Assembly: GCF_019039035.1 (NCBI RefSeq)
Contig: NZ_JAHNZT010000005.1
Location: forward strand, 248,001-312,000
Direction: 5' to 3'
DNA from: Citreicoccus inhibens
Lineage (GTDB): Bacteria > Myxococcota > Myxococcia > Myxococcales > Myxococcaceae
DNA length: 64,000 nt
The notes beneath the pieces were generated by a model. It was not told the origin of the DNA. It saw nothing but the letters and a program-made list of their open reading frames with translations, and did not search any database. Shown one piece after another: positions 13,944-28,815 of the stretch; positions within the stretch are counted from its first letter, which is position 1; each line of letters begins with the position of its first letter. The position numbers and the translations under genes are program-made.

Positions 13944-15107
13944 ATGGGTGGGCGGTGGGCATGGAGTGGTGGGCTGTCGGTGCTCGCGATGCTGGCGTCG
14001 GGCTGTCGCGCGCGCTCCAACGAAATGGAGCCAGCCACTCCGGCCTCGGTGACGCTGGGGCCGGAGAACGTGGTGCAAGTGAAGCCGGCCGAGCTGCGCA
14101 GCGGGCCGGTCCTCTCCGGCACGCTCCAGGCGCCGAGGGCCGCCAACATGCGCGCGGAGGTCGGTGGCCGCGTCTTGAACGTGAAGGCGGAGCCCGGCCA
14201 GCCGGTGCACAAGGACGAGCCCCTCGCGCGCATCGACGAAGGGACGCTGCGGGCCCAGGTGCTCGCGGCCCGCTCCTCGCTGCGCGTGGCGGACAACGCG
14301 CTCCGCGTGGCCCAGTCGGATGAGGCGCGCAACTCGCGGCTGGCGAAGGCGGGGGTCATCACCCAACGCGACTTCGAGCGTGCTCAGCTCGCTCGGACGC
14401 AAGCGGAAGGACAGTTGGCGGATGCACGCTCGCGCCTGAAGCTGGCGGAAGAGCAGCTCACCCGCACGCGCGTCGTCGCGCCGTTCGATGGCGTGGTCAG
14501 TGAGCGCGCGGTGCATACAGGCGACATCGTTCAGGTGGGCTCGCCCCTCTTCACGGTGGTGGATCCGCGCTCGCTTCGGTTGGAGGCCGCGGTGCCCGCC
14601 GTGCAGCTCGCGCAGGTGAAGGCTGGCACGCCCGTGGAGTTCCATGTCACCGGCTACGGCGAGCGGACGTTCCGCGGGCAGGTGGAGCACATCAACCCCG
14701 CGGTCGATCCGACGACGGGGCAGGTGCGCATCTATGTGGACGTCCCCAATGACTCGCGGGCGCTGCTCTCGGGGCTCTTCGCGCAGGGCCGCGTGGCCTC
14801 CACCGCGAGCCAGGGATTGGCCGTGCCTCTGGACGCGTTGGATCCGCGGAGCGACCCACCCTCCGTGCTGCGCATCCACGATGGCAAGGTGGCGCGGGCT
14901 CCCGTGACACTGGGCTTGCGTGACGAGGTGGCGCAGGCCGTGGAGGTTCGCTCTGGCCTCCAGGACGGAGACCTCGTGTTGCTCGGCTCCGCGCGCGAGC
15001 TGACCGAGGGGACGCCCGTGAAGGTGACCGCCTCCCCAGCGCCTCGCGCTCCGAACCAGGGCGTGGGCGGCGCGGGGCGTGACTCGGTTCCGGAGCGCGC
15101 CCCGTAG
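13944..15107 (+). CDS. RND efflux periplasmic adaptor (membrane fusion protein), lipoprotein
   Basis: A 387-aa adaptor of the HlyD/AcrA family. The ATG at 13944 has GAGGAGA upstream and gives a lipoprotein signal MGGRWAWSGGLSVLAMLASGC. Visible parts are the first half of the lipoyl domain (ANMRAEVGGRVLNVKAEPGQ), a coiled-coil hairpin (about residues 90-160, rich in Ala/Arg/Gln heptads), the second lipoyl half (TRTRVVAPFDGVVSERAVHTGD) and beta-barrel and proximal domains with GQVEHINPAVDPTTGQVRI. It should link the inner-membrane pump encoded 31 bases downstream to an outer-membrane channel. No TolC-type gene is adjacent. Confidence 0.93.
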   Translation: MGGRWAWSGGLSVLAMLASGCRARSNEMEPATPASVTLGPENVVQVKPAELRSGPVLSGTLQAPRAANMRAEVGGRVLNVKAEPGQPVHKDEPLARIDEGTLRAQVLAARSSLRVADNALRVAQSDEARNSRLAKAGVITQRDFERAQLARTQAEGQLADARSRLKLAEEQLTRTRVVAPFDGVVSERAVHTGDIVQVGSPLFTVVDPRSLRLEAAVPAVQLAQVKAGTPVEFHVTGYGERTFRGQVEHINPAVDPTTGQVRIYVDVPNDSRALLSGLFAQGRVASTASQGLAVPLDALDPRSDPPSVLRIHDGKVARAPVTLGLRDEVAQAVEVRSGLQDGDLVLLGSARELTEGTPVKVTASPAPRAPNQGVGGAGRDSVPERAP

Positions 15108-15138
15108 CGCGGGCCTTCATCCTCACGGGAGTCGCTCG

Positions 15139-18100
15139 GTGTTCATCTCGGACTTCGCCATCAAGCGTCCCATCGTCACCATCACCGCGATGGTGGCGTT
15201 GGTCGTCTTCGGAATCGTCGCGCTCCTCAACCTGGAGACGGACGAGTTCCCCGACATCCAGCAGCCGGTCATCGCCGTGTCCATCGTCTACCTGGGGGCC
15301 TCGCCCGACACGGTGGAGCGAGAGATTGTCGAGCCCATCGAGGACGCCATCTTCAGCATCAGCGGCGTGGACGCGAAGAAGACGACCTCCAGCGCGACGG
15401 ATGGCCTGGCCAACTTCACGGTCTTCTTCGATTTCTCGAAGGACGTGCAGCAGGCCTCTCAGGACATCCGCGACGCCATCTCCAGCAAGCGAGCGGACCT
15501 GCCGCAAGAGATGAAGGAGCCCATCCTCACGCGGTTTGATCCGTCTCAGCAGCCCATCATGTCGCTGGTCCTCACGTCGCCTTCGCTCGACGTGCCCTCG
15601 CTGTCACGACTGGCGGATCCGCTGGTGGTGAGCGAGCTGCGGTCGGTCGCGGGCGTGGCGCAGGTGACGGTGGTGGGGGGCCTGGACCGCGAGCTGACGG
15701 TGCAGGTCCGTCCCGCCGCCCTCCAGGCCGCGGGCCTGTCCGTCGCGCAGATCGTCGCGGCGCTGCAGGCCCAGAACCTCGCCGCGCCGGTGGGGCGGCT
15801 CAACACGGAGCTGGAGGAGCGCACCATCCGCCTGCGAGGCCGCCTGGAGACGCCGGAGGACTTCGCGCGCGTGGCGGTGGCCGAGCGAGGCGGACGCACG
15901 GTGCGCCTGGGAGAAGTAGCGGATGTCTTCGCCGGCACCGAGGAGCCGCGCACCGAGGCCCTCTTCAACGGGGGCAAGGCGGTGGGCATCGACGTGCTGA
16001 AGTCCAAGGGATACAGCACCACGGAGGTGGCTGATGCCGTGCGCGAGCGCGTGCGCGTGCTTCAGCAGCGCCTACCCGAGCAGGCGCGGCTGGAGGTGGT
16101 GCGAGACGCGGGTAAGCGGGTGCGCGCCGCGGTGGTGAACGTGCAGCAGGCGCTGGTGGAGGGCGCGCTGTTGACGGTGCTGGTGGTGTTCCTCTTCCTC
16201 AACTCGTGGCGCTCCACGGTCATCACGGGACTGGCTTTGCCCGTGAGCGCGCTGGCGTCCTTCATCAGCGTCTGGGTGTTTGGCTTCACGCTCAACACGA
16301 TGTCCCTGCTCGGGTTGACGTTGGCCATTGGCATCCTCATCGACGATGCCATCGTGGTGCGCGAGAACATCGTGCGCCACATCGAGATGGGGAAGGACCA
16401 CTTCACCGCCTCGCGCGAGGGCACGCATGAAATCGGGCTCGCGGTGGCGGCCACCACGTTCTCCATCGTGGCGGTGTTCATCCCGGTGGCCTTCATGTCC
16501 GGCGTGGCGGGGCAGTGGTTCAAGCCGTTCGCGCTGACCATCGCGTGCTCGGTGCTGGTGTCCCTGTTCGTCAGCTTCTCGCTGGACCCGATGCTCAGCG
16601 CGTACTGGGCCGATCCCCAGACGGAGTCCGGTGCGCGCCGAGGGTTCATCTCCCGAGGGCTGACGTACTTCAATCATTGGTTCGACCGGCAGGCGGATCG
16701 CTACAAGGGCGTGATTGCGTGGGCGCTGGACCATCGGTTGGTGATGGTGCTGCTCGCGGTGGGTTCGCTCGTGGGGGCGGTGATGCTCCAGGCGACGATT
16801 GGTGGCGCGGGCTTCGTCCCCGTGAGCGACCGCGGCGAGCTGGAGGTGCTGGTGGAGACGCCGCCGGGCTCCAGTCTGGAGTACACGCGGCGCAAGGTGG
16901 AGGAGGTGTCGCGCCGCATTCGCGCGCACTCCGAAGTGGCTTACACATACTCGACCATCGGGACGCCGCTGCCGCTGCGCGCGCCCGGCGTGGACCAGGC
17001 GCTGGTGTACGTGCGCCTGAAGCCCAGGACCGAGCGCAAGGAGAACCAGGATGCGCTGGGCCGCGTCTTCCGAGGCGAGTTGCTCGAAGTGGGTGGGGCC
17101 ACGGCCTCTGTCTTCACCAGTGGCTTTGGAGGCGCGCTGAAGTCCATCCAGTTGGAGCTGCGCGGCCCGGAGACGCAGCCCCTCAACGCATTGGCGGAGA
17201 AGGTGATGGCGGCGGTCCGGCAGGTTCCTGGCGCGGTGGACGTGGGCCTGTCCACGCGAGGCCAGAAGCCCGAGCTGGAGGTGGAGCTGAACCGAGGACT
17301 CGCAGGACAGCTCAACGTGACAGTGGGGCAGGTGGCGCAGTCGCTGCAACCGGCCTTCGCGGGGCTCGACTCGGGAGACTGGGTGGACCCTTCGGGCAAG
17401 ACGCGGGATGTGATGGTGCGACTGGCGCCTGAGTCACGCACACAGCCCTCGGATCTGGCGCAGCTTCCGCTGGTCATTGGAGCGGGTCCCAATGGTGCGC
17501 CCATCGTGGTGCCGCTGGGGCAGGTGGCATCGGTGCGCCAGACGCTGGGCCCGGCGCAAATCAATCACTTGAACCGAGAGAAGGTCATCAACGTCCAGGC
17601 GAATGTGCAGGGGCGCTCGCTCTCCGAGGTGACGCGAGACATCGACGTGAAGCTCAAGGGCGTGACGATTCCCAAGGGCTACGTGATGTCGCTCGGCGGG
17701 GAGTCAGCGGATCAGCGCGAGGTGTTCGGTCGGGTGTTCCTGGCGCTGGGGGTGGCGGTGTTGTTGATGTATCTCATCCTCGTGGTCCAGTTCGGCTCGT
17801 TCGTGGATCCGCTGGCCATCTTGGTGTCGCTGCCGCTGTCGCTGATTGGCGTGGTGCTGGCGCTGCTGGTGACGGGCGACACGCTGAACATCATGAGCTT
17901 GATTGGAGTCATCTTGCTCATGGGCATCGTGGCGAAGAACGCCATCCTGCTCATCGACTTCGCCAAGTGGTCGCATGCGCGAGGCACGCCGTTGCGCGAA
18001 GCGCTCATCGAAGCAGGGCGCATCCGCCTACGGCCCATCATCATGACGACGTTCGCGCTCATCGCGGGCATGGTGCCGGTGGCGCTGGGGCACGGCGAGG

Positions 18101-18321
18101 GCGGCGACTTCCGTGCACCGCTGGGCCGAGCGGTGATTGGCGGCGTCATCACCTCCACGCTGCTCACGCTGCTGGTGATTCCAACCGTCTACGAGATTCT
18201 CTCCGACGGTCGAGCGTGGCTGCTGAATCGACTGCGCCGAGTGTTCAATGCAGAGGGCGCGAGGCGGGAGCCGCACGGGGGAGGGGAGCCGCGTCCGGCA
18301 CCCCATTCACGGCAGGAGTGA
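15139..18321 (+). CDS. RND multidrug/solute efflux permease (HAE1/AcrB family)
   Basis: A 1060-aa inner-membrane proton antiporter. The start is the GTG at 15139, giving FISDFAIKRPIVTITAMVAL, the standard RND N terminus. Proton-relay aspartates D402-D403 are in LAIGILIDDAIVVREN (TM4), with the matching Lys in LMGIVAKNAILLIDFA (TM10). Two large periplasmic loops and 12 membrane segments are evident. Substrate is unknown. It forms an operon with the upstream adaptor. The 3' end overlaps the convergent GspG-like gene by 77 bases, and roughly the last 120 bases have a diverged copy 580 bases further on (see repeat entries). The C-terminal tail after the last membrane segment is Arg/Gly/Pro-rich. 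Confidence 0.95.
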   Translation: MFISDFAIKRPIVTITAMVALVVFGIVALLNLETDEFPDIQQPVIAVSIVYLGASPDTVEREIVEPIEDAIFSISGVDAKKTTSSATDGLANFTVFFDFSKDVQQASQDIRDAISSKRADLPQEMKEPILTRFDPSQQPIMSLVLTSPSLDVPSLSRLADPLVVSELRSVAGVAQVTVVGGLDRELTVQVRPAALQAAGLSVAQIVAALQAQNLAAPVGRLNTELEERTIRLRGRLETPEDFARVAVAERGGRTVRLGEVADVFAGTEEPRTEALFNGGKAVGIDVLKSKGYSTTEVADAVRERVRVLQQRLPEQARLEVVRDAGKRVRAAVVNVQQALVEGALLTVLVVFLFLNSWRSTVITGLALPVSALASFISVWVFGFTLNTMSLLGLTLAIGILIDDAIVVRENIVRHIEMGKDHFTASREGTHEIGLAVAATTFSIVAVFIPVAFMSGVAGQWFKPFALTIACSVLVSLFVSFSLDPMLSAYWADPQTESGARRGFISRGLTYFNHWFDRQADRYKGVIAWALDHRLVMVLLAVGSLVGAVMLQATIGGAGFVPVSDRGELEVLVETPPGSSLEYTRRKVEEVSRRIRAHSEVAYTYSTIGTPLPLRAPGVDQALVYVRLKPRTERKENQDALGRVFRGELLEVGGATASVFTSGFGGALKSIQLELRGPETQPLNALAEKVMAAVRQVPGAVDVGLSTRGQKPELEVELNRGLAGQLNVTVGQVAQSLQPAFAGLDSGDWVDPSGKTRDVMVRLAPESRTQPSDLAQLPLVIGAGPNGAPIVVPLGQVASVRQTLGPAQINHLNREKVINVQANVQGRSLSEVTRDIDVKLKGVTIPKGYVMSLGGESADQREVFGRVFLALGVAVLLMYLILVVQFGSFVDPLAILVSLPLSLIGVVLALLVTGDTLNIMSLIGVILLMGIVAKNAILLIDFAKWSHARGTPLREALIEAGRIRLRPIIMTTFALIAGMVPVALGHGEGGDFRAPLGRAVIGGVITSTLLTLLVIPTVYEILSDGRAWLLNRLRRVFNAEGARREPHGGGEPRPAPHSRQE
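18190..18310. repeat. Tandem duplication, copy 1: RND 3' end
   Basis: This segment, the last part of the RND permease gene, recurs in diverged form at 18770-18890, offset by 580 bases. Shared stretches include GCGTGGCTGC, CTGCGCCG, ATGTTCAA/GTGTTCAA, GAGGCGGGAG and CCCCATTC. Each copy carries on its opposite strand the C-terminal codons of a GspG-like gene, so the duplicated unit was the permease tail plus the GspG-like gene. Confidence 0.75.
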
Positions 18322-18772
18322 CGTTCGCGGGCGAGGAATTGATGAACTCGGCCTCGATGGGGTCCATTTCGATGTCCGCGTCGGAGTCCTCTCCGCCGAG
18401 GGCTCCGTCCGCGCCATACGCCCTGACGTGTGGACCCTTATCATCGAGTGAGTAGTCATACTCACGGCCCCACGGGTCTGTGGGAATCCTGTCCAGGTGC
18501 CGTGTTGCCACCAATGCCGGGATCCCTTCCTGGACAGAGGGGAAGTGCCCCTGCTGTTTGTAATAGCGCTTCAGCGCCGTGCGGATGGCACGCAGGTCCT
18601 CCATCGCTCGCTCGTCTTTGGGTATTTCGCCCAAGTGTGGAAGGACCCCGGTGCTGCTGAGCAGTATGCACAGGACAACGAGTCCGCCGAACACGGCCAG
18701 GATATTCCGGAGGAGGAGCACGAGAACGCGCCAGGGCGAGTAAGGTGGGCGAGAGGGAGCGGTGAAGTTCAT
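18245..18772 (-). CDS. GspG-like protein with N-terminal membrane anchor (copy A)
   Basis: A 175-aa protein starting MNFTAPSRPPYS, with one membrane segment (about residues 15-45, VLVLLLRNILAVFGGLVVLC) and then a domain matching the C-terminal part of type II secretion major pseudopilin GspG: LRAIRTALKRYYKQQGHFPS, IPALVATRHLDRIPTDPWGREY, GADGALGGEDSDADI. The prepilin peptidase site (G/FTLIE) is absent, so it is not a standard pseudopilin; the domain is held by an ordinary anchor. The last 25 codons are antisense to the RND permease gene. It is about half identical to the following gene on the same strand. Function unknown. Confidence 0.8.
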   Translation of the reverse strand: MNFTAPSRPPYSPWRVLVLLLRNILAVFGGLVVLCILLSSTGVLPHLGEIPKDERAMEDLRAIRTALKRYYKQQGHFPSVQEGIPALVATRHLDRIPTDPWGREYDYSLDDKGPHVRAYGADGALGGEDSDADIEMDPIEAEFINSSPANVTPAVNGVPDAAPLPRAAPASRPLH

Positions 18773-18890
18773 GCGATCCTCGCGGACAGAGGTGCGTGGC
18801 TGCCGAGTCGGCTGCGCCGCATGTTCAACGCGGAGGGCGTGAGGCGGGAGGCACGGGGTGGGTGGGGGCCGTGTCCCTCGCCCCATTCGT
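18770..18890. repeat. Tandem duplication, copy 2: orphan RND 3'-end fragment
   Basis: A diverged copy of 18190-18310. Read on the plus strand it still resembles the permease C terminus (WLPSRLRRMFNAEGVRREARG against WLLNRLRRVFNAEGARREPHG), but no permease gene precedes it. It lies partly in the gap before copy A and partly antisense to the 3' end of GspG-like copy B. Confidence 0.75.
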
Positions 18891-19331
18891 GGCAGAGGAG
18901 GCGCTCGCCGGTATCTCGCAGATCAGCTCGGCGTCGAACCGGGCCATGGTGATCTCCGCGTTGAGTCCGTCGCCACCGGGCGCTCCGTCCGCGCCATTCG
19001 TCCAGACGCGTGGGCCTTCGTCATCGAGCACGTAGTGGTACTCGTGGCCCCACGGGTCCGTGGGAATCTTCTCCAGATTCTGGGTCGCCACCAGGGCCGC
19101 GAAGCCTTCCTTCGTCGAGGGAAAGTGTCTCTGCTTGTTGTAATAGAGCTTCAACGCAGCGCGGATGTGGTGCAGATCCAGCTTCGCGATGTCCTCGGGG
19201 TGCTCCAGGTTGCAAGGGGCGACCGCGACGATGATGAGGAGCAACACGAACATCCCCAACAATGTGAGCCAGATGTTGCGGGCGATGCGGGCGAAGGACT
19301 GCTTCGGAGGAACCTGCGTCGGAATGGACAT
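18825..19331 (-). CDS. GspG-like protein with N-terminal membrane anchor (copy B)
   Basis: A 168-aa paralogue of the neighbouring gene: an N-terminal membrane segment (about residues 18-42, LTLLGMFVLLLIIVAVAP) and a GspG-type domain with LHHIRAALKLYYNKQRHFPS, KEGFAALVATQNLEKIPTD, PWGHEYHY and GADGAPGGDGLNAEI. No type IV pilin-like cleavage site is seen. The two copies keep the spacing of the GspG beta-sheet and calcium-loop region but differ in anchor and tail, so the duplication is not recent. The ATG at 19331 is the only reasonable start. Gene order B then A on the minus strand, 52 bases apart, suggests cotranscription. Confidence 0.8.
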   Translation of the reverse strand: MSIPTQVPPKQSFARIARNIWLTLLGMFVLLLIIVAVAPCNLEHPEDIAKLDLHHIRAALKLYYNKQRHFPSTKEGFAALVATQNLEKIPTDPWGHEYHYVLDDEGPRVWTNGADGAPGGDGLNAEITMARFDAELICEIPASASSATNGARDTAPTHPVPPASRPPR

Positions 19332-19468
19332 GACACGCGTCCATCTTCAAGGCGTGTGCCGCGGCGCTTCTCCCTCTTGGGTTCGCTTGACTCGACGCGC
19401 GCAGCTCCGCCGTCAGCGCATTCCTGTCCAAGCGCGACAGTGGCCGCGGACAATCTGTCGCGATGCTC

Positions 19469-19936
19469 GTGGCTCGTCGGCGCGCGCAGCTGTCAGTCGC
19501 TCCCGGTCCGGGCGTCGGCCCGTCTTTCCCTCGAATGACGGAGTCGAAACATGGGCTGGGCGACAGAGGCAGTGCAGGCGCTGTCACGCGGGTCGCGCGT
19601 GGAGGTGAGGCCCCGAGGCGGGTCCATGCGAGGTCGCATCGAGGACAATCAGCGCGTGACGCTGAGCCCGGTGGACCCGCGTGACGTTCAGGTCGATGAC
19701 ATCGTGCTGGTGCGGTGGAGGGGTGGGGTCCTCCTGCATCTCGTGAAGCGGGCCACGGCGGAGCAACTGCTCATCGGCAACAACGTGGGCCGCATCAATG
19801 GCTGGGCGCCTCGTCGAGACGTCGTCGGCCGCGTCGTGCACATCCATCCCCTCACGACGTGACGTGCTCGCGGTCGCAGTATCGCTGCTGAACGTCCGCG
19901 CGCCGGAGCGGTTGGCGTGAGCGCGCCGGGGCTCTA
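19469..19936. repeat. Long direct repeat, left copy (about 468 bp)
   Basis: Nearly identical to 22261-22730 (offset 2792 bases, then 2794 after a 2-base indel near 19888). It carries the S24/S26-like gene plus about 80 bases on each side. Few substitutions are visible, so the duplication is recent. The left copy ends exactly at the TA that abuts the IS element end at 19937; the right copy ends exactly where the unique sequence in front of the GH77 gene begins. Confidence 0.9.
19551..19862 (+). CDS. Small S24/S26 (signal peptidase-like) domain protein, copy 1
   Basis: A 103-aa protein. Its core resembles the S24/S26 fold of LexA and signal peptidase I: GGSMRGRI carries a Ser in the G-x-S-M position of the catalytic serine, followed by VQVDDIVLVRWRG, LLHLVKRA (a candidate general-base Lys) and LLIGNNVGRINGWAP, ending VVGRVVHIHP. 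It has neither a DNA-binding domain nor membrane segments, so it would be a free-standing small hydrolase or an inactive relative. The ATG at 19551 is used here; in the duplicate at 22343 the same position is TTG. A weak GACGGAG ribosome site precedes it. The family call is by eye. Confidence 0.6.
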   Translation: MGWATEAVQALSRGSRVEVRPRGGSMRGRIEDNQRVTLSPVDPRDVQVDDIVLVRWRGGVLLHLVKRATAEQLLIGNNVGRINGWAPRRDVVGRVVHIHPLTT

Positions 19937-20570
19937 AGAACCTATTTCGGTAGGAGCGCGTGGAACCAAGTGATGATGCCCAGCGCAAAGTGCAGCATCG
20001 CGACGTAGGTGTCCTCTCGCTTCTCCCAGCGCACCAGCAGACGTCGGAAGCGGTTGAGCCAGGAGTGGGTTCGCTCGACGACCCATCGCGGCGAAGAGCG
20101 TCGACGCTGTGCGCACCGGGGCCTCACCTGGGAGTGTCGTCTGGGGGCCCGGAGCGTGAAGCCATACTCCTGGGCCAGCTCGCGCACGGACCTGAAGGCA
20201 TACCCCAGGTCACCACACAGCGTCTGGCAACTGCCCCGACTTGGCAGGGGCCGTCGGACGGGAATCGATTCAAGCGTGGAGCGCGCCAGCTTGAAGTCGT
20301 TCGTGTTGGCTCCAGCGACCTCGAGGCCGAGGGGGACGCCGCGCGAGTCTGTCAGCAGACTGCGCTTGGTGCCCCGCTTCGCTCTGTCGGTGGGATTGAG
20401 GCCGGTTTCTTCCCCCGCCCAGCGGCGCTTTGCCCTGGGGCCCGTCCAACGCCAGCCAGCGCCAATCAATGCCCGCCAGCCGTCGTCCTTCTTCACTACC
20501 CCATGGCCGCGTCCTCCTGCCTCTTCAACCCGGCAGGAGGCCGACCTTCTTCCCTACCGAAATAGGCTCT
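19937..20570 (-). mobile_element. Degenerate IS5-family element with intact ends
   Basis: A 634-bp element bounded by near-perfect terminal inverted repeats: AGAACCTATTTCGGTAGG at 19937-19954 and its complement at 20553-20570, with one mismatch. A TA dinucleotide flanks each end (19935-19936 and 20571-20572), consistent with the TA target duplication of IS5/IS427-type elements. Relatives are usually above 800 bp, so around 200 bases, including the first open reading frame, appear to be missing. It is probably immobile unless supplied with transposase in trans. Confidence 0.8.
19942..20496 (-). pseudogene. IS5-family transposase, truncated and frameshifted
   Basis: The readable part (185 codons from a GTG at 20496) carries EETGLNPTDRAKRGTKRS, LLTDSRGVPLGLEVAGAN and the C-terminal DDE signature RWVVERTHSWLNRFRRLLVR, typical of IS5 transposases. 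The segment carrying the first catalytic Asp, GIDWRWLALDGPQGKAPLGG, is in another frame; the two frames join at a run of five Gs just before the EETG codons, where removing one G would restore the product. Upstream of GIDW that frame soon meets a TGA. The N-terminal domain is absent. A programmed frameshift is possible in this family, but the lost 5' half argues for a pseudogene. Confidence 0.75.
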
Positions 20571-20582
20571 TATCGAAACGAC

Positions 20583-20831
20583 ATGGCCAAGATTGCAATT
20601 ACTCGAGACATGGTTGAGAATCGCTCGATGCCGGTCCCTGAATGCGAGGAATATCATATTTCGGATATCTTGTCGGGCCTGGCCGACGGCAAGGTAAATA
20701 AAGTTTTCCAGACGGAGGGATTTGCTTCGGAGGCGGATTGGCAATCTTCGCGTGAGCAAATTCAGCGGCGATTGGCTGCGTATAGGGGCGCAGTGCTGGC
20801 AGGGACGACTAGGCGCGATATTGGTCGGTGA
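20583..20831 (+). CDS. Hypothetical protein, 82 aa
   Basis: A short gene beginning 12 bases after the IS element (ATG at 20583, MAKIAITRDMVENRSMPVPE). The product is soluble and mixed-charge, with a C-terminal helical stretch (ADWQSSREQIQRRLAAYRGA). I do not recognise it. It lies 4 bases before the GTG of the lipoprotein gene downstream, suggesting cotranscription. Base composition is clearly less GC-rich than the surroundings (codons such as ATT, TTT, AAA and AAT), pointing to acquired DNA. Its original 5' region may have been displaced by the IS. Confidence 0.5.
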   Translation: MAKIAITRDMVENRSMPVPECEEYHISDILSGLADGKVNKVFQTEGFASEADWQSSREQIQRRLAAYRGAVLAGTTRRDIGR

Positions 20832-20835
20832 TTGC

Positions 20836-21657
20836 GTGGGATTTATCAAAAATTTGGTGTGTTTTTGTCTCATTGGGCTGTCGGGGGGGTGCGTCCCCAA
20901 AGGACTTAGCTCTCCTTCGGGTACGGTTGATACTGGCTTGAAGCCTGAGGTTGTCTTGTGGTCGCTATGTCCATTTCCCTGTCTAGATCGGTCGCCGAAG
21001 ATTGCTATTTATGGCGATGGCCGGATTTTGAGGAGGGTGTCTCGAAATTTGGACGAGGCGCCAACGTTCTGGCGCGGAGGAATGTCTTCTGTGCAGTGTC
21101 GAGCCTTGTCTTCTTTGGTGCGAGAACAGGGGGCGGGATTGGCTGATTCGTTTGTTTTTGCTGCTGAGGGTACTGATGCTCCAGAATACATTCTGCAATG
21201 GCGACTGCGCGATGAGGGGGTGCGACAAATGGTGGTTAATGGAATACTGGAGCCGGAGGAAGGTAAAGGGGATCGCCCTCGCACTCCCTCCGCATTTCTA
21301 AGGATTCTAGATGGGTTGGCTGGATGTGTTCCGGTCGACGCTCGTGTCTATATTCCTGATGCTGTCTTGCTTGAGTTTGTGCCCGTCACGTTTTCGACCA
21401 ATGGCGGCGTTGCTTGGCCTGACTCATGGACGGCGTCGACCGTGTTCTCGGATGGATCTCAGAGCGGAGTCGAGAGTGGGTTGACCGCGCTGTTGCCGGG
21501 TTCGCAGTTCGCTGAAGTCTATCGATGGCTCTGGCGTCTCCAGAGTTCTGGCCATGACGTTTTGTTTCGGGGGCAGCTATTCTACGTCAGGATGCAAGCA
21601 GTCTTCCCTGGCGCACCAGCTCCACTGACTTTTAGTGTTCCTGAAATTCCAAAGTAG
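20836..21657 (+). CDS. Hypothetical lipoprotein in AT-richer segment
   Basis: A 273-aa protein. The GTG at 20836 gives VGFIKNLVCFCLIGLSGGC, a lipoprotein signal with lipobox LSGGC, which decides this start over longer in-frame options. The mature part has no family I recognise: beta-rich sequence with a central acidic/Arg patch (ILEPEEGKGDRPRTPS) and a Trp/Tyr-rich C terminus. Codon use is strongly shifted to A/T wobble bases compared with all genes outside 20.58-21.8 kb, so the gene probably came by transfer with the preceding small gene. Together they form the cargo between the IS element and the right direct repeat. Confidence 0.7.
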   Translation: MGFIKNLVCFCLIGLSGGCVPKGLSSPSGTVDTGLKPEVVLWSLCPFPCLDRSPKIAIYGDGRILRRVSRNLDEAPTFWRGGMSSVQCRALSSLVREQGAGLADSFVFAAEGTDAPEYILQWRLRDEGVRQMVVNGILEPEEGKGDRPRTPSAFLRILDGLAGCVPVDARVYIPDAVLLEFVPVTFSTNGGVAWPDSWTASTVFSDGSQSGVESGLTALLPGSQFAEVYRWLWRLQSSGHDVLFRGQLFYVRMQAVFPGAPAPLTFSVPEIPK

Positions 21658-21758
21658 TCTTGCTTCGGAGCGAGAGCGACCTTACTCGCCCGTGTTTTTG
21701 AAGTACTCGAAAGGAGCGGCAGTGGGCTGATTGCACATGGATAATGTGGCCGCCATCT
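21658..21758. other. Short noncoding stretch after the cargo lipoprotein
   Basis: AT-richer sequence between the lipoprotein stop and the remnant ORF. I see no gene, RNA or strong hairpin here. Confidence 0.5.
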
Positions 21759-22060
21759 TTACAAAGAAAGTGGATCGTGTGTCGCACCGGGTTGTTGAGA
21801 CACCAGGTTGGTCGTAATCAGGCCGTCTGCTTCGACTGCATCAGCTTTCTCCGGGTCTGATTGGGCGAGAGGAAGTTGTGGCGCTCTGCGCGCCAGGGCG
21901 CGGCACACTTCGCGGCAGTAGGTCTGCCCCCTGTCGCACCTTCAACAGAGCCAGAATCGCTCCCCGCAATGACGGCACTCACGCTCGAAGCTCGTGCCCC
22001 CGGGCCTCTGGGGGCACGCTTTCGTGACACGGGCGCTTCTTGTTGGTGTCTGTCGCGCAG
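21759..22060 (-). pseudogene. Remnant of a small Cys-rich (zinc-ribbon-like) protein gene
   Basis: On the minus strand the frame reads TSFERECRHCGERFWLC, then a TGA at 21942-21944, then RCDRGQTYCREVCRALARRA, and continues open to a TAA at 21759. Joined across the stop, the spaced cysteines (CxxC, C, CxxC, C...C) form a zinc-ribbon-like pattern that resembles small Cys-rich ORFs I recall next to transposons. The stop replaces what would be a CGA Arg codon by one base change. The family assignment is from memory and weak; the interrupted pattern is what the sequence shows. Confidence 0.4.
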
Positions 22061-22260
22061 AGGTAGCGACTTCATTTGTCCAGCGGCTTGGCATTCCTCC
22101 AGGGCGCTCATCTCGCCCTCTCTTCCAGCCCAGCGTGGCCCAAGCCTCCCCAGCCGCTAGTTGTTCGCGCCTCGAGCTCCGCTGCGCGGCCCTCCACTCC
22201 CGCGCTTCTCCGCGCTCGCGTGGTTCGAAGACCCGCGCTTCTTGAAGGTTGTCTCCACTT
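22061..22260. other. Stretch before the right direct repeat, no gene seen
   Basis: The remaining 200 bases before the right repeat carry no gene I can support. They may contain the 5' part of the Cys-rich remnant, but no clear start or homology is visible. Confidence 0.4.
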
Positions 22261-22730
22261 GTGGCTCGTCGGCGCGCGCAGCTGTCAGTCGCTCCCGGTC
22301 CGGGCGTCGGCCCGTCTTTCCCTCGAATGACGGAGTCGAAATTTGGGCTGGGCGACAGAGGCAGTGCAGGCGTTGTCACGCGGGTCGCGCGTGGAGGTGA
22401 GGCCCCGAGGCGGGTCCATGCGAGGTCGCATCGAGGACAATCAGCGCGTGACGCTGAGCCCGGTGGACCCGCGTGACGTTCAGGTCGATGACATCGTGCT
22501 GGTGCGGTGGAGGGGTGGGGTCCTCCTGCATCTCGTGAAGCGGGCCACGGCGGAGCAACTGCTCATCGGCAACAACGTGGGCCGCATCAATGGCTGGGCG
22601 CCTCGTCGAGACGTCGTCGGCCGCGTCGTGCACGTCCATCCCCTCACGACGTGACGTGCTCGCGGTCGCGCAGTGTCGCTGCTGAACGTCCGCGCGCCGG
22701 AGCGGTTGGCGTGAGCGCGCCGGGGCTCTA
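22261..22730. repeat. Long direct repeat, right copy (about 470 bp)
   Basis: Partner of 19469-19936. Differences noted: the start codon of the internal gene (ATG to TTG), one Ile-to-Val codon near its end, and GCAGTATC against GCGCAGTGTC after the stop. It ends at CTCTA, after which sequence belonging to the GH77 gene begins at once. Confidence 0.9.
22343..22654 (+). CDS. Small S24/S26-like domain protein, copy 2 (TTG start)
   Basis: A 103-aa protein differing from copy 1 by a single Ile-to-Val change near the C terminus (VVHVHP). The start codon position reads TTG instead of ATG, with the preceding C also changed to T. TTG can initiate in bacteria, but expression should be lower, and this copy may be on its way to becoming a pseudogene. 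All features noted for copy 1 (GGSMRGRI serine motif, candidate Lys in LLHLVKRA) are retained. It directly precedes the GH77 gene on the same strand. Confidence 0.55.
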   Translation: MGWATEAVQALSRGSRVEVRPRGGSMRGRIEDNQRVTLSPVDPRDVQVDDIVLVRWRGGVLLHLVKRATAEQLLIGNNVGRINGWAPRRDVVGRVVHVHPLTT

Positions 22731-22745
22731 GGGTCGCTTCTCCCT

Positions 22746-22750
22746 GGAGA
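22746..22750 (+). promoter_or_regulatory. Candidate ribosome binding site for the GH77 gene
   Basis: GGAGA at 22746-22750 sits 7 bases before an in-frame CTG at 22758. No comparable site precedes the first conventional start (GTG 22830), so this site favours initiation at the CTG. Confidence 0.4.
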
Positions 22751-22757
22751 CGCAAGC

Positions 22758-24671
22758 CTGACACCGCTGCCCAAAGATCATCGCAAGGTCGTCACCGAGG
22801 CCCTGGCGGCGCTGGGCGTCACGCGCTGGGTGCTCAGCATCCAGGACCCGAGCTTCCCGGGCCTGCCGGGGCAGGACTTCGGCCGGGGTTCGCCGTACTC
22901 GGAGGGCGCCGCGCGCCTGTTCTCCTTCGCGCGCGACCTGGGCTTCACCGGCGTCCAGCTCGGGCCCCAAGGGCAGACCACCGAGTACAACGCGTCGCCG
23001 TACGACGGCACGCTGTTCTCGCGCAACGTGCTCAACGTCGCGCTCACGCCGCTCACCGACCCGCATGGTCCTTGGGGAAGACTGCTCTCGCCTGACACGC
23101 TGGCCCGCTTCGTCTCCGAGCGCCCGTTCACCTCACGCCCGGACGTCCGTTACGGCTTCGCGTTCCGCGCGCAGTCCGCCGCGCTCGACGAAGCGTGGGC
23201 CACCTTTCAACGAGAACAACCCACCGAACTCTCGCGGGCTTTCGCGTCATTCCAACGGGACAACGCATCATGGCTCACGCCGGACTCGCTCTTCGATGTG
23301 CTCGGCGCCGAGCGTGGCGACGCGGACTGGCGGCACTGGGAGCCATCGCTCGACGCGAGGCTGTTCAGTCCGCACCCCGAAGAGGCGGACGCCGCCGAGG
23401 CGCGTGTGCACGAACTGGAGACTCGGCACGCGACCTCCCTGGACCGCTACGCCTTCTTCCAGTTCCTGGTGCACTCGCAACACGCGCAGCTGCGCGAGCG
23501 CGCGGTGGATTGGGGGCTGAAGTTCTACGGCGACCTCCAGATTGGCTTCTCGCCTCGGGACGCGTGGGCGTGGCGGGGCTTGTTCCTGCGCACGGACCTG
23601 ATGGGCGCCCCTCCCAGTCGCACCAACCCGGAAGGGCAGCCCTGGAACTATCCGGTGATGGATCCCGCGCATTACTTCGAAGCCGACGCGCGCCAGCCCG
23701 GGCCCGTGCTGCGCTTCATGGATGCACGGCTGGGAAAGATGCTGGGCGAGTACGACGGCCTGCGCATCGACCATCCTCACGGGCTCGTGTGTCCGTGGGT
23801 GTACCGCGCGGGAGAACCGGATGCCCTGCGCGCGGTGCAGCAGGGCGCGCGCCTGTTCTCCTCTCCCGACCTGCCAGACCATCCCGAGCTGGCTCGCTAC
23901 GCCATCGTCGGGCCGGAGCAACTGGACCGCACGCAATCCCGTCACGCGGATGGCTGGGTGCGCTCGCTCACGCCCGCGCAGGTGGAGCGCTACAGCGTCC
24001 TCTTCGACGCGGTGGTGCGGACCGCGCAGCGCCAAGGGCGAGCACGAGAGGACCTCTTGTGCGAGGTGCTCAGCACGATGCCCTATGAGCTGGGATGCGT
24101 GCTCGCGCGCCATGGCCTGGGGCGCTTCCGCGTGACGCAGAAGGCAGCCCTCGACAACCCCTCCGACGTGTACCGCAGCGAGAACGCGGCGCCCGACGAC
24201 TGGGTGATGGTGGGGAACCACGACACGCCCTCGCTGTGGCGCTGGGTGGGGACATGGCAGTGGCGTGGCGCCTCGCGTGCGCAGGCGGCGTACCTGTCCC
24301 AGCGCCTGCATCCCGAGCCGGAGGGCCGTGAGGACTTCGCGAGACGGCTCGCGGAGAACCCCGCCGAGTTGGCTCAGGCGAAGTTCGCGGACCTCTTCGC
24401 GTGTCGCGCGCGCAACGTGATGGTCTTCTTCGCTGACCTCTTGGGGATGCAAGAGACCTACAACGTGCCGGGCACCGTGGATGCGCGGAACTGGTCCCTG
24501 CGCGTGCCCGAGGACTGGGCGCAGCGCTATCGCGAGCGTCTCCGCGTGGGTGCGGCCCTGGACCTGCCACGTGTGTTGGCGCTGGCCCTGCGCGCGCGTG
24601 GCGCGGAGTCACGCACCCGTCACGCCGCGCTGTTGCGCCGACTGGACCAGTTGTCCCACGCAGGGGAGTAG
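22758..24671 (+). CDS. malQ: 4-alpha-glucanotransferase (GH77, amylomaltase type)
   Basis: A divergent amylomaltase that transfers alpha-1,4-glucan segments (637 aa from CTG 22758; 613 aa from GTG 22830). GH77 features are SPYDGTLFSRN, the nucleophile Asp in LRIDHPHGL, the acid/base Glu probably in LLCEVLSTMP, and the third catalytic Asp in GNHDTPSLWRW. The GTG at 22830 would start inside the first barrel strand (RWVLSIQDPSF), so translation most likely begins upstream. The frame is open back into the direct repeat without ATG, GTG or TTG, leaving CTG 22758 behind a GGAGA site as the best candidate. The repeat/insertion may have replaced the original start. The cytoplasmic role is glycogen or maltodextrin metabolism. 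Confidence 0.85.
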   Translation: MTPLPKDHRKVVTEALAALGVTRWVLSIQDPSFPGLPGQDFGRGSPYSEGAARLFSFARDLGFTGVQLGPQGQTTEYNASPYDGTLFSRNVLNVALTPLTDPHGPWGRLLSPDTLARFVSERPFTSRPDVRYGFAFRAQSAALDEAWATFQREQPTELSRAFASFQRDNASWLTPDSLFDVLGAERGDADWRHWEPSLDARLFSPHPEEADAAEARVHELETRHATSLDRYAFFQFLVHSQHAQLRERAVDWGLKFYGDLQIGFSPRDAWAWRGLFLRTDLMGAPPSRTNPEGQPWNYPVMDPAHYFEADARQPGPVLRFMDARLGKMLGEYDGLRIDHPHGLVCPWVYRAGEPDALRAVQQGARLFSSPDLPDHPELARYAIVGPEQLDRTQSRHADGWVRSLTPAQVERYSVLFDAVVRTAQRQGRAREDLLCEVLSTMPYELGCVLARHGLGRFRVTQKAALDNPSDVYRSENAAPDDWVMVGNHDTPSLWRWVGTWQWRGASRAQAAYLSQRLHPEPEGREDFARRLAENPAELAQAKFADLFACRARNVMVFFADLLGMQETYNVPGTVDARNWSLRVPEDWAQRYRERLRVGAALDLPRVLALALRARGAESRTRHAALLRRLDQLSHAGE

Positions 24672-24795
24672 GCCGCGACCCGTGAAGTGCGAGTGCTCGT
24701 CTCGCGCGACCCACCTGCCCACGAGGGAGGCTGTCTTCCGTGTGGCGCCGATATCTTCTATCTAGAGAACAGTTCGAGCGCCGCTGGTCTTCGGG

Positions 24796-25257
24796 ATGGA
24801 GCTGAGCCTCGCCGTGACGACTCCTCGTGAGTGGGCATTCGGGACGCATCGCGCGACCTTCGAGGCGCCGGACCTGCTCGTCTTCCGCTTCGTCGGGCCC
24901 TCACGGCTGGAGGATGTGAAGCGGGTGCTGGAGATCTGCGAGGAGCTGGGCGCGCGACATCCGCTCTACGTCATCTCCGACGTGGCGAACTCGACGCTGG
25001 AGCGCGAGGCGCGCGACCACCTCGTCCACCATTCGAGCGAGGCGTGGTTCAAGGGCCAGGTGTACCTGGGCACGGGCCCGGTCGAGCGCGCGGGTGCCAA
25101 GGCGCTGATGCTGGCCCTTTATCTGCTGGGCCGGTGGCGCGTGCCGCTCGAGTTCGCCGACACCGAGGCGGAGGCTCGCGAACTCATCGCGCGCCAGCGA
25201 GCCCGCGACCACGCCCTGCGCTCGGCCTCAGTGCTTCACGTCCACCACGATGCGTGA
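24796..25257 (+). CDS. STAS/SpoIIAA-like small protein
   Basis: A 153-aa cytoplasmic protein. The pattern of a beta-strand (LLVFRFVG), helix (RLEDVKRVLEICEELG), strand (LYVISDVANS), a helix near EARDHLVHHSS and a final helix (EAEARELIARQRARD) resembles the STAS/SpoIIAA-like domain proteins common in myxobacteria, which often regulate by protein binding. Identity is weak, so this is a fold-level call. It starts at ATG 24796 and its last 30 bases overlap the 3' end of the convergent AMIN-like lipoprotein gene. Confidence 0.55.
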   Translation: MELSLAVTTPREWAFGTHRATFEAPDLLVFRFVGPSRLEDVKRVLEICEELGARHPLYVISDVANSTLEREARDHLVHHSSEAWFKGQVYLGTGPVERAGAKALMLALYLLGRWRVPLEFADTEAEARELIARQRARDHALRSASVLHVHHDA

Positions 25258-25926
25258 CGGGCCCTTCAGCTCCAGCACGCGATAGCTCGTAGGGCGCGCG
25301 GTGCCGAGCAGCCACGTCACCTCGGCCTCGAAGTCACAGGTGCGGACCAGCTCGCGCACCATGGGCAGCGCGGGCTTCAGCGTGAGGTCACTCACGGTGG
25401 CCTTGCCCTCGGACGTGTGCGCACGCGCGGGGATGAAGCGCACCTCCAGCGGCCCTTGCCCCTCCACCTTCACCGGGTCGCCCGAGCCGCACTGCACCGC
25501 GGGCGTCTTCGCGTAGGCGACCTGATAGCCGGGCAGCTCCGCGCCCTCGAATTGGAACACCACGCGGTCGTAGTCCTCGTGGGGGCCCGTGCGCACCGAG
25601 ACGAGCGTGGCCTGGGTTTGCTCACGGCGCTTCACCTCGGTGGGGCTGGAGGTCCACGCGGGCGAGTCTGGTTCGGCGGCGGGAGCGCTCTCCTCGGGGC
25701 CGGGGGGAGTCGGCGTCGGCGCTTGGGGGAGGACGCTGCCCGAGGCGACGTGGACAGGGGGACGTGCCTCGGCTTCGCCTTCGCGAGGGAGGGTGCCCAG
25801 GGGTGGCGTGGGCGTGGGCGCCACGGTGCGCTCGGGCGCGGGCTCGTCCTTCTTGGAACATCCCCCCGCCGTGAGCAGCGCGCCCACGAGCCACAGCGAC
25901 CGCATCCCACGTCCAGACCGCCGCAT
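25228..25926 (-). CDS. AMIN-like domain lipoprotein
   Basis: A 232-aa lipoprotein: signal peptide ending in lipobox LTAGGC, then a long low-complexity Pro/Glu/Ala linker (about residues 25-95), then a beta-rich C-terminal domain with HEDYDRVVFQFEGAELPGY, VRFIPARAHT and PSRIVVDVKH. That last domain matches the AMIN-like pattern, thought to bind cell-wall or envelope components. The ATG at 25926 follows GGGAGGACACGCG, a good ribosome site. The linker would let the domain reach through the periplasm. The gene overlaps the STAS-like gene tail to tail. Confidence 0.75.
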   Translation of the reverse strand: MRRSGRGMRSLWLVGALLTAGGCSKKDEPAPERTVAPTPTPPLGTLPREGEAEARPPVHVASGSVLPQAPTPTPPGPEESAPAAEPDSPAWTSSPTEVKRREQTQATLVSVRTGPHEDYDRVVFQFEGAELPGYQVAYAKTPAVQCGSGDPVKVEGQGPLEVRFIPARAHTSEGKATVSDLTLKPALPMVRELVRTCDFEAEVTWLLGTARPTSYRVLELKGPSRIVVDVKH

Positions 25927-26019
25927 CGCGTGTCCTCCCAACGGCCCTCCGGGTGGGGCCGGTGCCCTCCTCTCGCACGGGAGGGCACCTGGGAGCCAGG
26001 GCTCAGCGCGCCGGGGATG

Positions 26020-27030
26020 TCACGGCGCCGACGTGGCGGGGGCGAGCGCGCGCGGGTCCACGTCCAGGATGAAGCGCACGAGCGGGCCGTCCACCATGCG
26101 CGTCCCGTTCACCACGGTGGTCGGCTTCTCGAAGAAGCAGTTGTTCCAGACGAGTCCGGCCAGGGCCGTATCCGCCGCGTTGGACCACGTGCCATCCATG
26201 GGGCCCTCGTAGTAGCCCGTGCGGTGCAGCACCTTCTTGAGGCGCTTCGCCGTGGGCTTGTCGAGCGCGATGCGGTCCGCGGGGTCCTGGACGGCGAGCA
26301 CGCCCAGGTAGCGGTGGAGCTGCACGTCCAGCTCTTCCAGCGCGTTGTAGCTGCTGTTGACGACGGCGTCCGCGAGCACGTGCGTGTAGAAGGCGCTGTC
26401 CGCGGTGGTGTTCCACACGCGCACGACGCCCGAGCGCTCGCCATTCTTGTCCCCGCCCACGCGCGCGCCGGCCTGGAGCGCCTGGAGCAGTCGCCGCGGG
26501 AAGCTGCCGGTGGCGTGCTCGAAGCCATCCGCCATGGCCTGGCAGAGGTTGCCGGTGGACATGTTGTTGGCCTGCACGACGTAGGTGGCGCCCTTCACGG
26601 AGCACGTGGCGTCCGCCGTCTGGTTTCCGGAGGTCTGCCCCAGCGTGATGCTCCCATCGGGGTGCAGCTTCACCGCGGCGAGCTGGCGGATGGGGCCATA
26701 GGGGTCCTCGGCCAGCACCGAGTCGATGGCGGCCTGGGGCGCGGCGCCGCCGTCGATGCGCGCGATGACGGCCTGCGCATCATCCACCGAGGGTAGCGCC
26801 ATGGTGGCGACCGCGAGGTCGGAGCGCCCGTACGGCACCAGGGCCGTGATGCCCGTGGGGAACGAGATGACGGCGATGCCGCACTGATGTCCCACGGGGT
26901 CGCACGCCACGATGGCGCGCGTGCCGAAGATGCGCGTGTTGATGGACGAGGGCGGCGCGGCCCGCGCGGTGCCCGCGCCGAGCAAGAGGAGGGACGAGAG
27001 GGCGAGCAGGTGCTGCGTCAGGGGCTTCAT
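26020..27030 (-). CDS. DUF1028 family secreted protein
   Basis: A 336-aa secreted protein with signal peptide MKPLTQHLLALSSLLLLGAG ending near ARA. Residues about 30-230 match DUF1028, an Ntn-hydrolase-like family: STRIFGTRAIV-like start (here NTRIFGTRAIVACD), HQCGIAVISF, YVVQANNMSTG, MADGFEHATGSFPRRLLQAL and AGARVGGDKNGERSGVVRV. The C-terminal 80 residues (LKKVLHRTGYYEGPMDGTWS) resemble the peptidoglycan-binding-like tail often attached to this family. The reaction is unknown. It is divergent from the aminotransferase gene. Confidence 0.88.
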   Translation of the reverse strand: MKPLTQHLLALSSLLLLGAGTARAAPPSSINTRIFGTRAIVACDPVGHQCGIAVISFPTGITALVPYGRSDLAVATMALPSVDDAQAVIARIDGGAAPQAAIDSVLAEDPYGPIRQLAAVKLHPDGSITLGQTSGNQTADATCSVKGATYVVQANNMSTGNLCQAMADGFEHATGSFPRRLLQALQAGARVGGDKNGERSGVVRVWNTTADSAFYTHVLADAVVNSSYNALEELDVQLHRYLGVLAVQDPADRIALDKPTAKRLKKVLHRTGYYEGPMDGTWSNAADTALAGLVWNNCFFEKPTTVVNGTRMVDGPLVRFILDVDPRALAPATSAP

Positions 27031-27379
27031 GGCGGGGCCTCGGCATGAGGGACGGCGGCCGCCGCGCGCGACGCGCACGGACGGGACGCTCTTCCGGGGT
27101 GGGGTGGATGTCGCATGCCCTGGAACGGGACGGGTTCCGGGGCATATCGGCCTCTCGGGGCTCGCTCGGAATTCGTTGCGGCGTGAGTGTGACGGGACTG
27201 ACACCCATGCCCGGTCGCCCCGCGCCCGAGCGGAACGGGGCGTCGTCCCCATGCCCGTGCTTCGCGGTCCGCGCACATGCAGGTGGCTGAGACATGCGGG
27301 GCGCCCGGCGTGTAGGGTCCGCCGGGCCGCGGTGTCGCGTGCCCCCCTCTACTGACTCCGGAACTGGAGAGACCCTCTC
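27031..27379. other. Intergenic region between divergent genes
   Basis: About 350 bases between the start of the DUF1028 gene and the aminotransferase gene. It must hold promoters for both. I recognise no operator, hairpin or small gene. The aminotransferase ribosome site GGAGAG lies at the right edge (27366-27371). Confidence 0.5.
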
Positions 27380-28678
27380 ATGGCCCTGGACCTCACTTCC
27401 CTTCCGCGCCCCACGCGTGACGACTCGACCGTTGGCACGATGGTGCGCGGGCTCGTTGGCAGCGAAATCCTCCGCATCGCGGCGGAGATTCGCGAGCTGG
27501 TCGCCAAGGGGCGCAAGGTGTGCAACCTCACGGTGGGTGACTTCAGCCCCAAGGAGTTCCCCATCCCGCAGGGGCTGGGGCAGGGCATTGGCACCGCGCT
27601 CCAGGCGGGCGAGACGAACTACCCGCCCTCGGATGGCGTGCTGGAGCTGCGCCAGGCGGTGCAGCGCTTCTATGAGCGCTCGCTGGGCCTGAAGTACCCG
27701 CTGGAGGGAATCGTGGTCGCCGGCGGCGCGCGGCCCATCATTTACGGCACCTATCGCGCGGTGCTCGATGCCGGCGACGAGGTCATCTATCCGGTGCCCT
27801 CGTGGAACAACAACCACTACGCGCACATGCTCGGGGCCCGCAGCGTGGTGGTGCCCACGGATCCAGAGAAGGGCTTCATGCCCACGCTGGAGCAACTTGC
27901 GCCGCACCTCTCGACCGCGCGGCTCCTATGCCTGTGCAGCCCGCTCAACCCCACGGGCACCATGGTGGACCCCGGCGCGCTGCGGGCCATTGCCCAGCGC
28001 ATCGTGGACGAGAACAAGTCGCGTGAGCAGCGCGGCCAGAAGCCGCTCATCCTCATGTACGACCACATCTACTGGGTGCTCACCTTCGGGAAGACGAAGC
28101 ACGTGACGCCCGTGGAGCTGGTGCCCGAGATTGCGCCGTACACGGTGTTCGTGGATGGCATCAGCAAGGCCTTCGCGGCGACGGGCGTGCGCGTGGGCTG
28201 GGGCGTGGGGCCGCCGTCCATCATCTCGCGCATGCGCGACGTGCTGGGCCACGTGGGCGCGTGGGCTCCCAAGGCCGAGCAGGTGGCGACGGCGCGCTAC
28301 CTGGACGACACCGCCGCGTGCGAGACGTACCTGCAGGCCATGCGCCGCAGCGTGGACGTGCGGCTGGAGGCGCTGTACCAGGGCTTCGAGCGCATGCGCG
28401 CCGCGGGCCTGCCGGTGCGCGCCATCGCGCCGCAGGGCGCCATCTACCTCTCGGTCCGCTTCGACCTGGTGGGCAAGGGCGACCTGAAGACGAACGATGA
28501 CATCCGCAAGCGGCTGCTGGAGAAGGCCAGCTTCGCGGTGGTGCCGTTCCAGGCGTTCGGCCTCAACGAGGACTCCGGCTGGTTCCGCCTCTCCGTGGGC
28601 GCTACGTCCGTGGCGGAAATCGAAGAGGCGCTCCCCCGCGTGGAGGCCACCGTGCGCGAGGTCCTCGCGTCGCGCTGA
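27380..28678 (+). CDS. PLP-dependent aminotransferase, class I/II
   Basis: A 432-aa cytoplasmic fold-type I enzyme. Family landmarks are NYPPSDGVLELRQAVQRFY near the substrate-binding loop, SPLNPTGTMV (conserved Asn), a PLP-contact Asp and Tyr in MYDHIYW, the Schiff-base Lys in DGISKAFAATGVRVGWG and the carboxylate-binding Arg in WFRLSVGA. It transfers an amino group between an amino acid and a 2-oxoacid; which substrate cannot be told. The ATG at 27380 follows GGAGAG by 8 bases. It is a stand-alone gene between a divergent DUF1028 gene and a co-oriented transporter. Confidence 0.92.
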   Translation: MALDLTSLPRPTRDDSTVGTMVRGLVGSEILRIAAEIRELVAKGRKVCNLTVGDFSPKEFPIPQGLGQGIGTALQAGETNYPPSDGVLELRQAVQRFYERSLGLKYPLEGIVVAGGARPIIYGTYRAVLDAGDEVIYPVPSWNNNHYAHMLGARSVVVPTDPEKGFMPTLEQLAPHLSTARLLCLCSPLNPTGTMVDPGALRAIAQRIVDENKSREQRGQKPLILMYDHIYWVLTFGKTKHVTPVELVPEIAPYTVFVDGISKAFAATGVRVGWGVGPPSIISRMRDVLGHVGAWAPKAEQVATARYLDDTAACETYLQAMRRSVDVRLEALYQGFERMRAAGLPVRAIAPQGAIYLSVRFDLVGKGDLKTNDDIRKRLLEKASFAVVPFQAFGLNEDSGWFRLSVGATSVAEIEEALPRVEATVREVLASR

Positions 28679-28815
28679 GGGCCGAACGGGGCGCGGCGTC
28701 CCACTCCTGACCCGGGAGCGATGCCGCGCCTCCTTCAGTGGAATCCGGGAATAGCGATCTTGAGATAGGGTTTGCTCCCGCTCACCGAGAACGGCGAGAC
28801 GCGCGACCTTCCCTC

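Follow-up and report, generated by a model that had tools for sequence, protein, structure and literature searches.

The window analysed here is a 64-kb stretch of the Citreicoccus inhibens genome (G000), which is available as a 9.05-Mb draft in 123 contigs, with the locus in the interior of a 393-kb contig. Between a tandem pair of GspG-like pseudopilin genes and an open frame for a GH77 enzyme, two direct repeats (R-left and R-right), each with a copy of an S24/S26-peptidase-like gene, enclose 2,321 bp of insert (Table 1). The genus sample consisted of this genome and one other, G001, and the species was represented by a single strain.

Table 1. Features of the locus with their positions in the window
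Feature	Positions	Strand	Remarks
GspG-like pseudopilin, second of tandem pair	18245-18886	-	Pfam T2SSG, E 4e-13
GspG-like pseudopilin, left flank	18825-19331	-	Pfam T2SSG, E 1.2e-14; also in G001
R-left	19466-19936	+	471 bp; adjoins the GspG-like genes, as in G001
S24/S26-peptidase-like ORF in R-left	19551-19862	+	103 aa, ATG start
IS5 left flank, TAA	19935-19937		TA common with the repeat end
IS5-family element, internally deleted	19938-20569	-	632 bp, against 896 bp in a complete copy on contig C49
IS5 right flank, TTA	20570-20572		Mismatch to the left TAA
ORF1	20583-20831	+	82 aa; weakly similar to the C-terminal end of an Rhs-type protein
ORF2	20836-21657	+	273 aa; lipobox-like N-terminus (by eye)
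IS3-family 3' end	21777-21886	-	C-terminus of orfB and terminus; multi-copy
Cys-rich remnant ORF	21818-22111	-	Part of the IS21-family piece
IS21-family 5' end	21881-22257	-	377 bp; includes a broken Cys-rich accessory ORF
R-right	22258-22730	+	473 bp; adjoins GH77, as in G001
Second S24/S26-like ORF copy, in R-right	22343-22654	+	Start changed from ATG to TTG
GH77 (4-alpha-glucanotransferase) open frame	22731-24671	+	Pfam GH77, E 3.6e-52

The repeats and their flanking genes

Two nearly identical repeats of 468 and 470 bp had been predicted from the letters of the window, and pairwise alignment bears them out at slightly greater length, with 465 of the 473 aligned positions identical and one 2-bp gap. 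A search of the whole 9.05-Mb genome with 521 bases spanning R-left returned seven matches, namely the two repeats and five short matches limited to the last 24-42 bases of the query, where the repeat end is followed by the IS5 end, and no third copy of R. As the genome holds two copies only, R was rejected as a multi-copy mobile element. R-left reaches the TA that precedes the IS5 end, where its homology to R-right stops; this is exactly where the left repeat had been placed. The right repeat had been described as ending where the GH77 region begins; the duplicated stretch does stop at that point, but the point is no gene boundary, the homology to G001 passing unbroken through it into GH77, and in the comparison with G001 the limits of R do not coincide with those of genes. 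The third base of R-right is T, as against C in both R-left and G001; lying at the junction, this T may be part of the insert.

The gene within the repeats is named S24/S26-like only, because its match to Pfam Peptidase_S24 (E 0.015, 15.4 bits) falls under the cut-off of 23.3. Ser25 is found in 16 of 16 aligned S24-like sequences and Lys66 in 15 of 16, positions that correspond to the catalytic Ser-Lys pair of S24/S26 peptidases. At 22342-22345 in R-right, CA has become TT, which turns the ATG of the gene into TTG, and expression of the two copies may therefore differ. At E ≤ 0.001 the protein was matched in 17 of the 96 genomes of the family, with two matches in the present genome and one in each of the other 16; two of these 16 matches are partial (G064 and G031) and 14 are near full-length. 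The GH77 gene adjoins the S24-like gene in seven of the 14 genomes with a near full-length match, and in the remaining seven no GH77 gene was found within the 10.5-11-kb stretches around it.

On the left flank, the tandem GspG-like genes (18245-19331) form ungapped direct repeats with a spacing of 580 bp, which are 73-74% alike, and the gene next to R-left has two matching stretches at the G001 locus. On the right flank, the GH77 frame contains no ATG, GTG or TTG from the upstream stop to 22830, the position of its first usual start. GTG and TTG candidates lie upstream in G001, and in 13 of 14 further relatives an ATG stands ahead of the conserved N-terminus or close to it. It is plausible that the present gene has lost its start codon or that a CTG is used.

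Make-up of the insert

The insert is a mosaic in which an IS5 deletion derivative is followed by ORF1, ORF2 and the ends of two further elements, one of the IS3 and one of the IS21 family. The IS remnant, the two AT-richer genes and the Cys-rich remnant that had been noticed at first all lie within its 2,321 bp. The IS5 transposase is recognised by the NCBIfam model transpos_IS5_3 (E 3.1e-38, 131.8 bits, cut-off 110), but the match covers only positions 100-258 of 258 and the N-terminus of the protein has thus been lost. Both terminal inverted repeats are present, with 20-nt arms that are 95% complementary, and comparison with the complete C49 copy places the internal deletion at a short imperfect repeat.

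A 3-bp target duplication of the form TNA is typical for part of the IS5 family. By exact pattern search, all 16 IS5 ends in the genome, including the two in the window, are preceded by TNA, and 12 of the 16 by CTAA or CTTA. TTA flanks the complete C49 copy at either end; the copy in the window lacks a matching target duplication, with TAA on its left and TTA on its right. One clean transposition is therefore improbable, and the junctions of R with IS5 and of IS5 with the cargo probably stem from different events, an argument that depends on one complete IS5 copy and on one base. The mismatch bears on the route of arrival and leaves the identity of the IS5-family remnant untouched. The third A of the left TAA occurs in neither R-right nor G001, both of which read TAG, and the difference could be a single point change.

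The two cargo genes have GC contents of 0.534 and 0.538, as compared with 0.692 for the window. Beyond this genome, matches to ORF2 occur in three genomes and a weak match to ORF1 in one, and all four lack an S24-like match. The match to ORF1, found in one other genome of 195 (G046), is to an Rhs-type ORF with 36% identity over 56 aa and an E value of 7e-4 per genome. That ORF has an Rhs-core-like motif, and a motif scan scored two places at its locus and none in the 64-kb window or at nine other loci scanned; although so narrow a motif passes over degenerate cores, its absence from the window tells against a neighbouring Rhs gene. A lipoprotein-like ORF in G015 resembles ORF2 (32% over 268 aa) and itself has a weak match to DUF6438 under the cut-off; ORFs in G082 and G079 are more weakly similar to ORF2. 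The gene downstream of the Rhs-type ORF in G046 is not similar to ORF2. Searches of Pfam (at E up to 1 for ORF1) and NCBIfam gave no match for the ORFs containing ORF1 or ORF2, and PHROGs none for ORF1 or ORF2. ORF2 is possibly an immunity lipoprotein, and the two genes could form an orphan pair of an Rhs toxin tip and its immunity protein.

For the IS3-family end, the matching frame at one other locus (L050) is IS3-family-like by NCBIfam at an E value of 5e-22, below the cut-off, and a shorter matching frame at another (L051) has no NCBIfam match. The Cys-rich piece is part of an IS21-family 5' end: at a related locus (L077), a Cys-rich ORF is followed by an IS21 transposase (NCBIfam transpos_IS21, E 3.6e-82). 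Since the window contains no IstA-type transposase, the 5' end of that element alone remains. Its terminus reads GTCTCCA in 8 of 12 aligned junctions, with variants in 4 (window copy included); at up to two mismatches it is found at seven sites in the same genome, and the end recurs in G001 too. The right junction of the insert is an exact IS21-family terminus abutting R-right. At five loci (L077-L081), a Cys-rich accessory ORF without a Pfam match stands beside an IS21-type transposase, as judged by eye and, in L077 and L078, by NCBIfam.

Age and possible routes of the gain

In G001 a single copy of the repeat (C3:300421-300890) lies between the same GspG-like genes and GH77; the cargo is absent, and homology is unbroken from the GspG-like side into the repeat and from the repeat into GH77. 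The original prediction had proposed a search for strains with one repeat copy and no cargo; G001 shows that arrangement, the comparison being between species. When each repeat is aligned together with its outer flank, the identity to G001 is 90.6% for R-left and 91.5% for R-right; the two copies are 98% identical to each other. When G001 serves as outgroup, three substitutions and a 2-bp deletion are derived in R-left and the two-base change (CA to TT) at the start codon in R-right, so that both copies have drifted since the duplication. The much closer likeness of the copies to each other than to G001 (about 91%), with changes proper to each, places the duplication in this lineage, and on these alignments it postdates the split from G001, barring homogenisation of the copies. 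A lineage-specific gain, the duplication of a 470-bp R and a mosaic make-up are demonstrated at the level of sequence.

It is very improbable that the arrangement of R, cargo and R is ancestral and that G001 lost the cargo by a crossover between the repeats. Such a deletion would leave exactly the arrangement of G001, but the 98% likeness of the repeats would then call for homogenisation, each of the 16 other matching genomes has one S24-like match, and the one outside match of ORF1 is weak and falls in a genome with no S24-like match. Even less credit can be given to a misjoining of short reads at a repeat or an IS: the assembly is a draft of 123 contigs, several of which start or end in IS5 copies, but the repeats differ at several positions, the IS5 copy has a deletion of its own, the contig extends over 393 kb around the locus and no third copy of R was found.

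As to the route, we tentatively favour the entry of an IS-mosaic fragment, already joined to a copy of R, by one crossover with the resident R. Starting from a single-copy locus of GspG-like genes, S24-like gene and GH77, the fragment would first have acquired, through IS activity, a copy of R from the same or a very close species, and the two would have been released or transferred together, for instance as a circle. One homologous crossover into the resident R would then have placed a repeat on each side of the cargo, the left R keeping the GspG context and the right R the GH77 context. The IS21 terminus at the junction with R suggests that IS activity took part in joining R to the cargo. 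The crossover would yield the whole arrangement in one step, the first joining of R to cargo lying outside the model; against it stands that no donor molecule or circle of R and cargo was found in the sequences compared. The original claim, that the repeat, IS and cargo were inserted as a unit by recombination at the existing repeat, thus stands as far as an insertion gained in this lineage is concerned, G001 having a single repeat and no cargo. The crossover site at the resident repeat does not follow with it, as a crossover leaves no mark that would tell it apart from tandem duplication or template switching, both of which fit the structure too.

Tandem duplications are common in bacteria, and a larger duplication of GspG, S24 and GH77 may have come first, with IS5 and IS21 elements inserting later at the inner edges of the S24 copies and IS-adjacent deletions and exchanges then putting the cargo in place of the rest. 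The inner edges of both repeats are indeed IS ends and much of the interior is IS debris. This route requires more steps, however, and no remnant of a duplicated flank is present in the insert, though some might be expected: at E ≤ 0.01 the insert has no similarity to window positions 14000-19465 and 22731-30000 or to the 11-kb locus of G001. We consider it somewhat unlikely. A single template switch, from the CTA/TA end of R-left to an IS5-flanked fragment and from there back to the left edge of R, is less plausible again. R ends in CTA, which together with the CTAA or CTTA before most IS5 ends amounts to 2-3 bases of microhomology, and R ignores gene limits, as this route would allow, but the exact IS21 terminus at the right junction would have to be a coincidence. 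A composite transposon, which would have two copies of one IS around the cargo and a short target duplication, was rejected, as the left-hand IS is here IS5, the right-hand one IS21, and the repeat outside them measures 470 bp.

A further reading, which we regard as very unlikely, is that a small circulating cassette of toxin/immunity-like genes docks by homology at the 470-bp S24-like gene, in an exchange that would be reversible and independent of transposase in these bacteria. If so, a crossover between the two copies of R would cut the cassette out exactly and leave the gene in single copy again. The direct repeats in any case make precise loss by RecA testable.

Relation to known systems

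IS-mediated duplications and adjacent rearrangements leave IS ends at their junctions and mismatched flanks. The present locus has both, but differs in that the IS ends at its two borders belong to two families. In the bcpAIOB megacircle of Burkholderia thailandensis and the translocatable units of IS26, circles integrate beside a resident IS copy (PMC6350997), and the authors of that report leave open whether RecA or a transposase is responsible. Movement of IS-bounded DNA with interbacterial toxin genes as a circle, and its integration next to a resident homologue that then stands on both sides, is what the present locus would share with those systems, although here this is by inference (PMC6350997). 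The shared sequence is here a host gene and no IS, and the megacircle uses an IS2-like transposase, unlike the present locus (PMC6350997). Further differences from the megacircle are that the bounding ISs here are two, different and partly deleted, that the insert measures 2.3 kb and that no circle was observed (PMC6350997).

For rhs-CT/rhsI, orphan modules have been described, and for cdiA-CT, orphan genes that IS elements have disrupted (PMC3150448). ORF1 and ORF2 would resemble the orphan cdiA-CT/cdiI and rhs-CT/rhsI arrangements in that a C-terminal toxin fragment, here a putative one, is followed by another gene, sometimes with disruption by an IS (PMC3150448). The fit is weak, as in contrast to the orphan rhs-CT/rhsI modules the link to Rhs is here a weak one of 56 aa, the window scan found no Rhs-core motif, and ORF2 is lipoprotein-like and uncharacterised (PMC3150448).

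Among the matches listed in the literature search, there was no description of the present locus. The insertion is real, recent and well bounded and has duplicated a resident gene; as an event it is ordinary, and it alters no general view; its use is as a bounded and relatively datable case in which IS debris and possible orphan toxin/immunity genes were brought into an established chromosomal locus.

IS21-type ends were also seen elsewhere in the same genome. On contig C64 (L045:5763-9971), three genes lie between two IS21-type end pieces that point the same way; they encode a transglutaminase-like protein, an ORF with Rhs-like N-terminal residues (judged by eye, the Rhs-core motif scan giving no score there) and a small following gene, and it may be that IS21 ends recur beside such cassettes. 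On contig C57 (about 333192-333251; L117), two inverted IS21-type termini form a 60-bp element that looks like a minimal mini-element.
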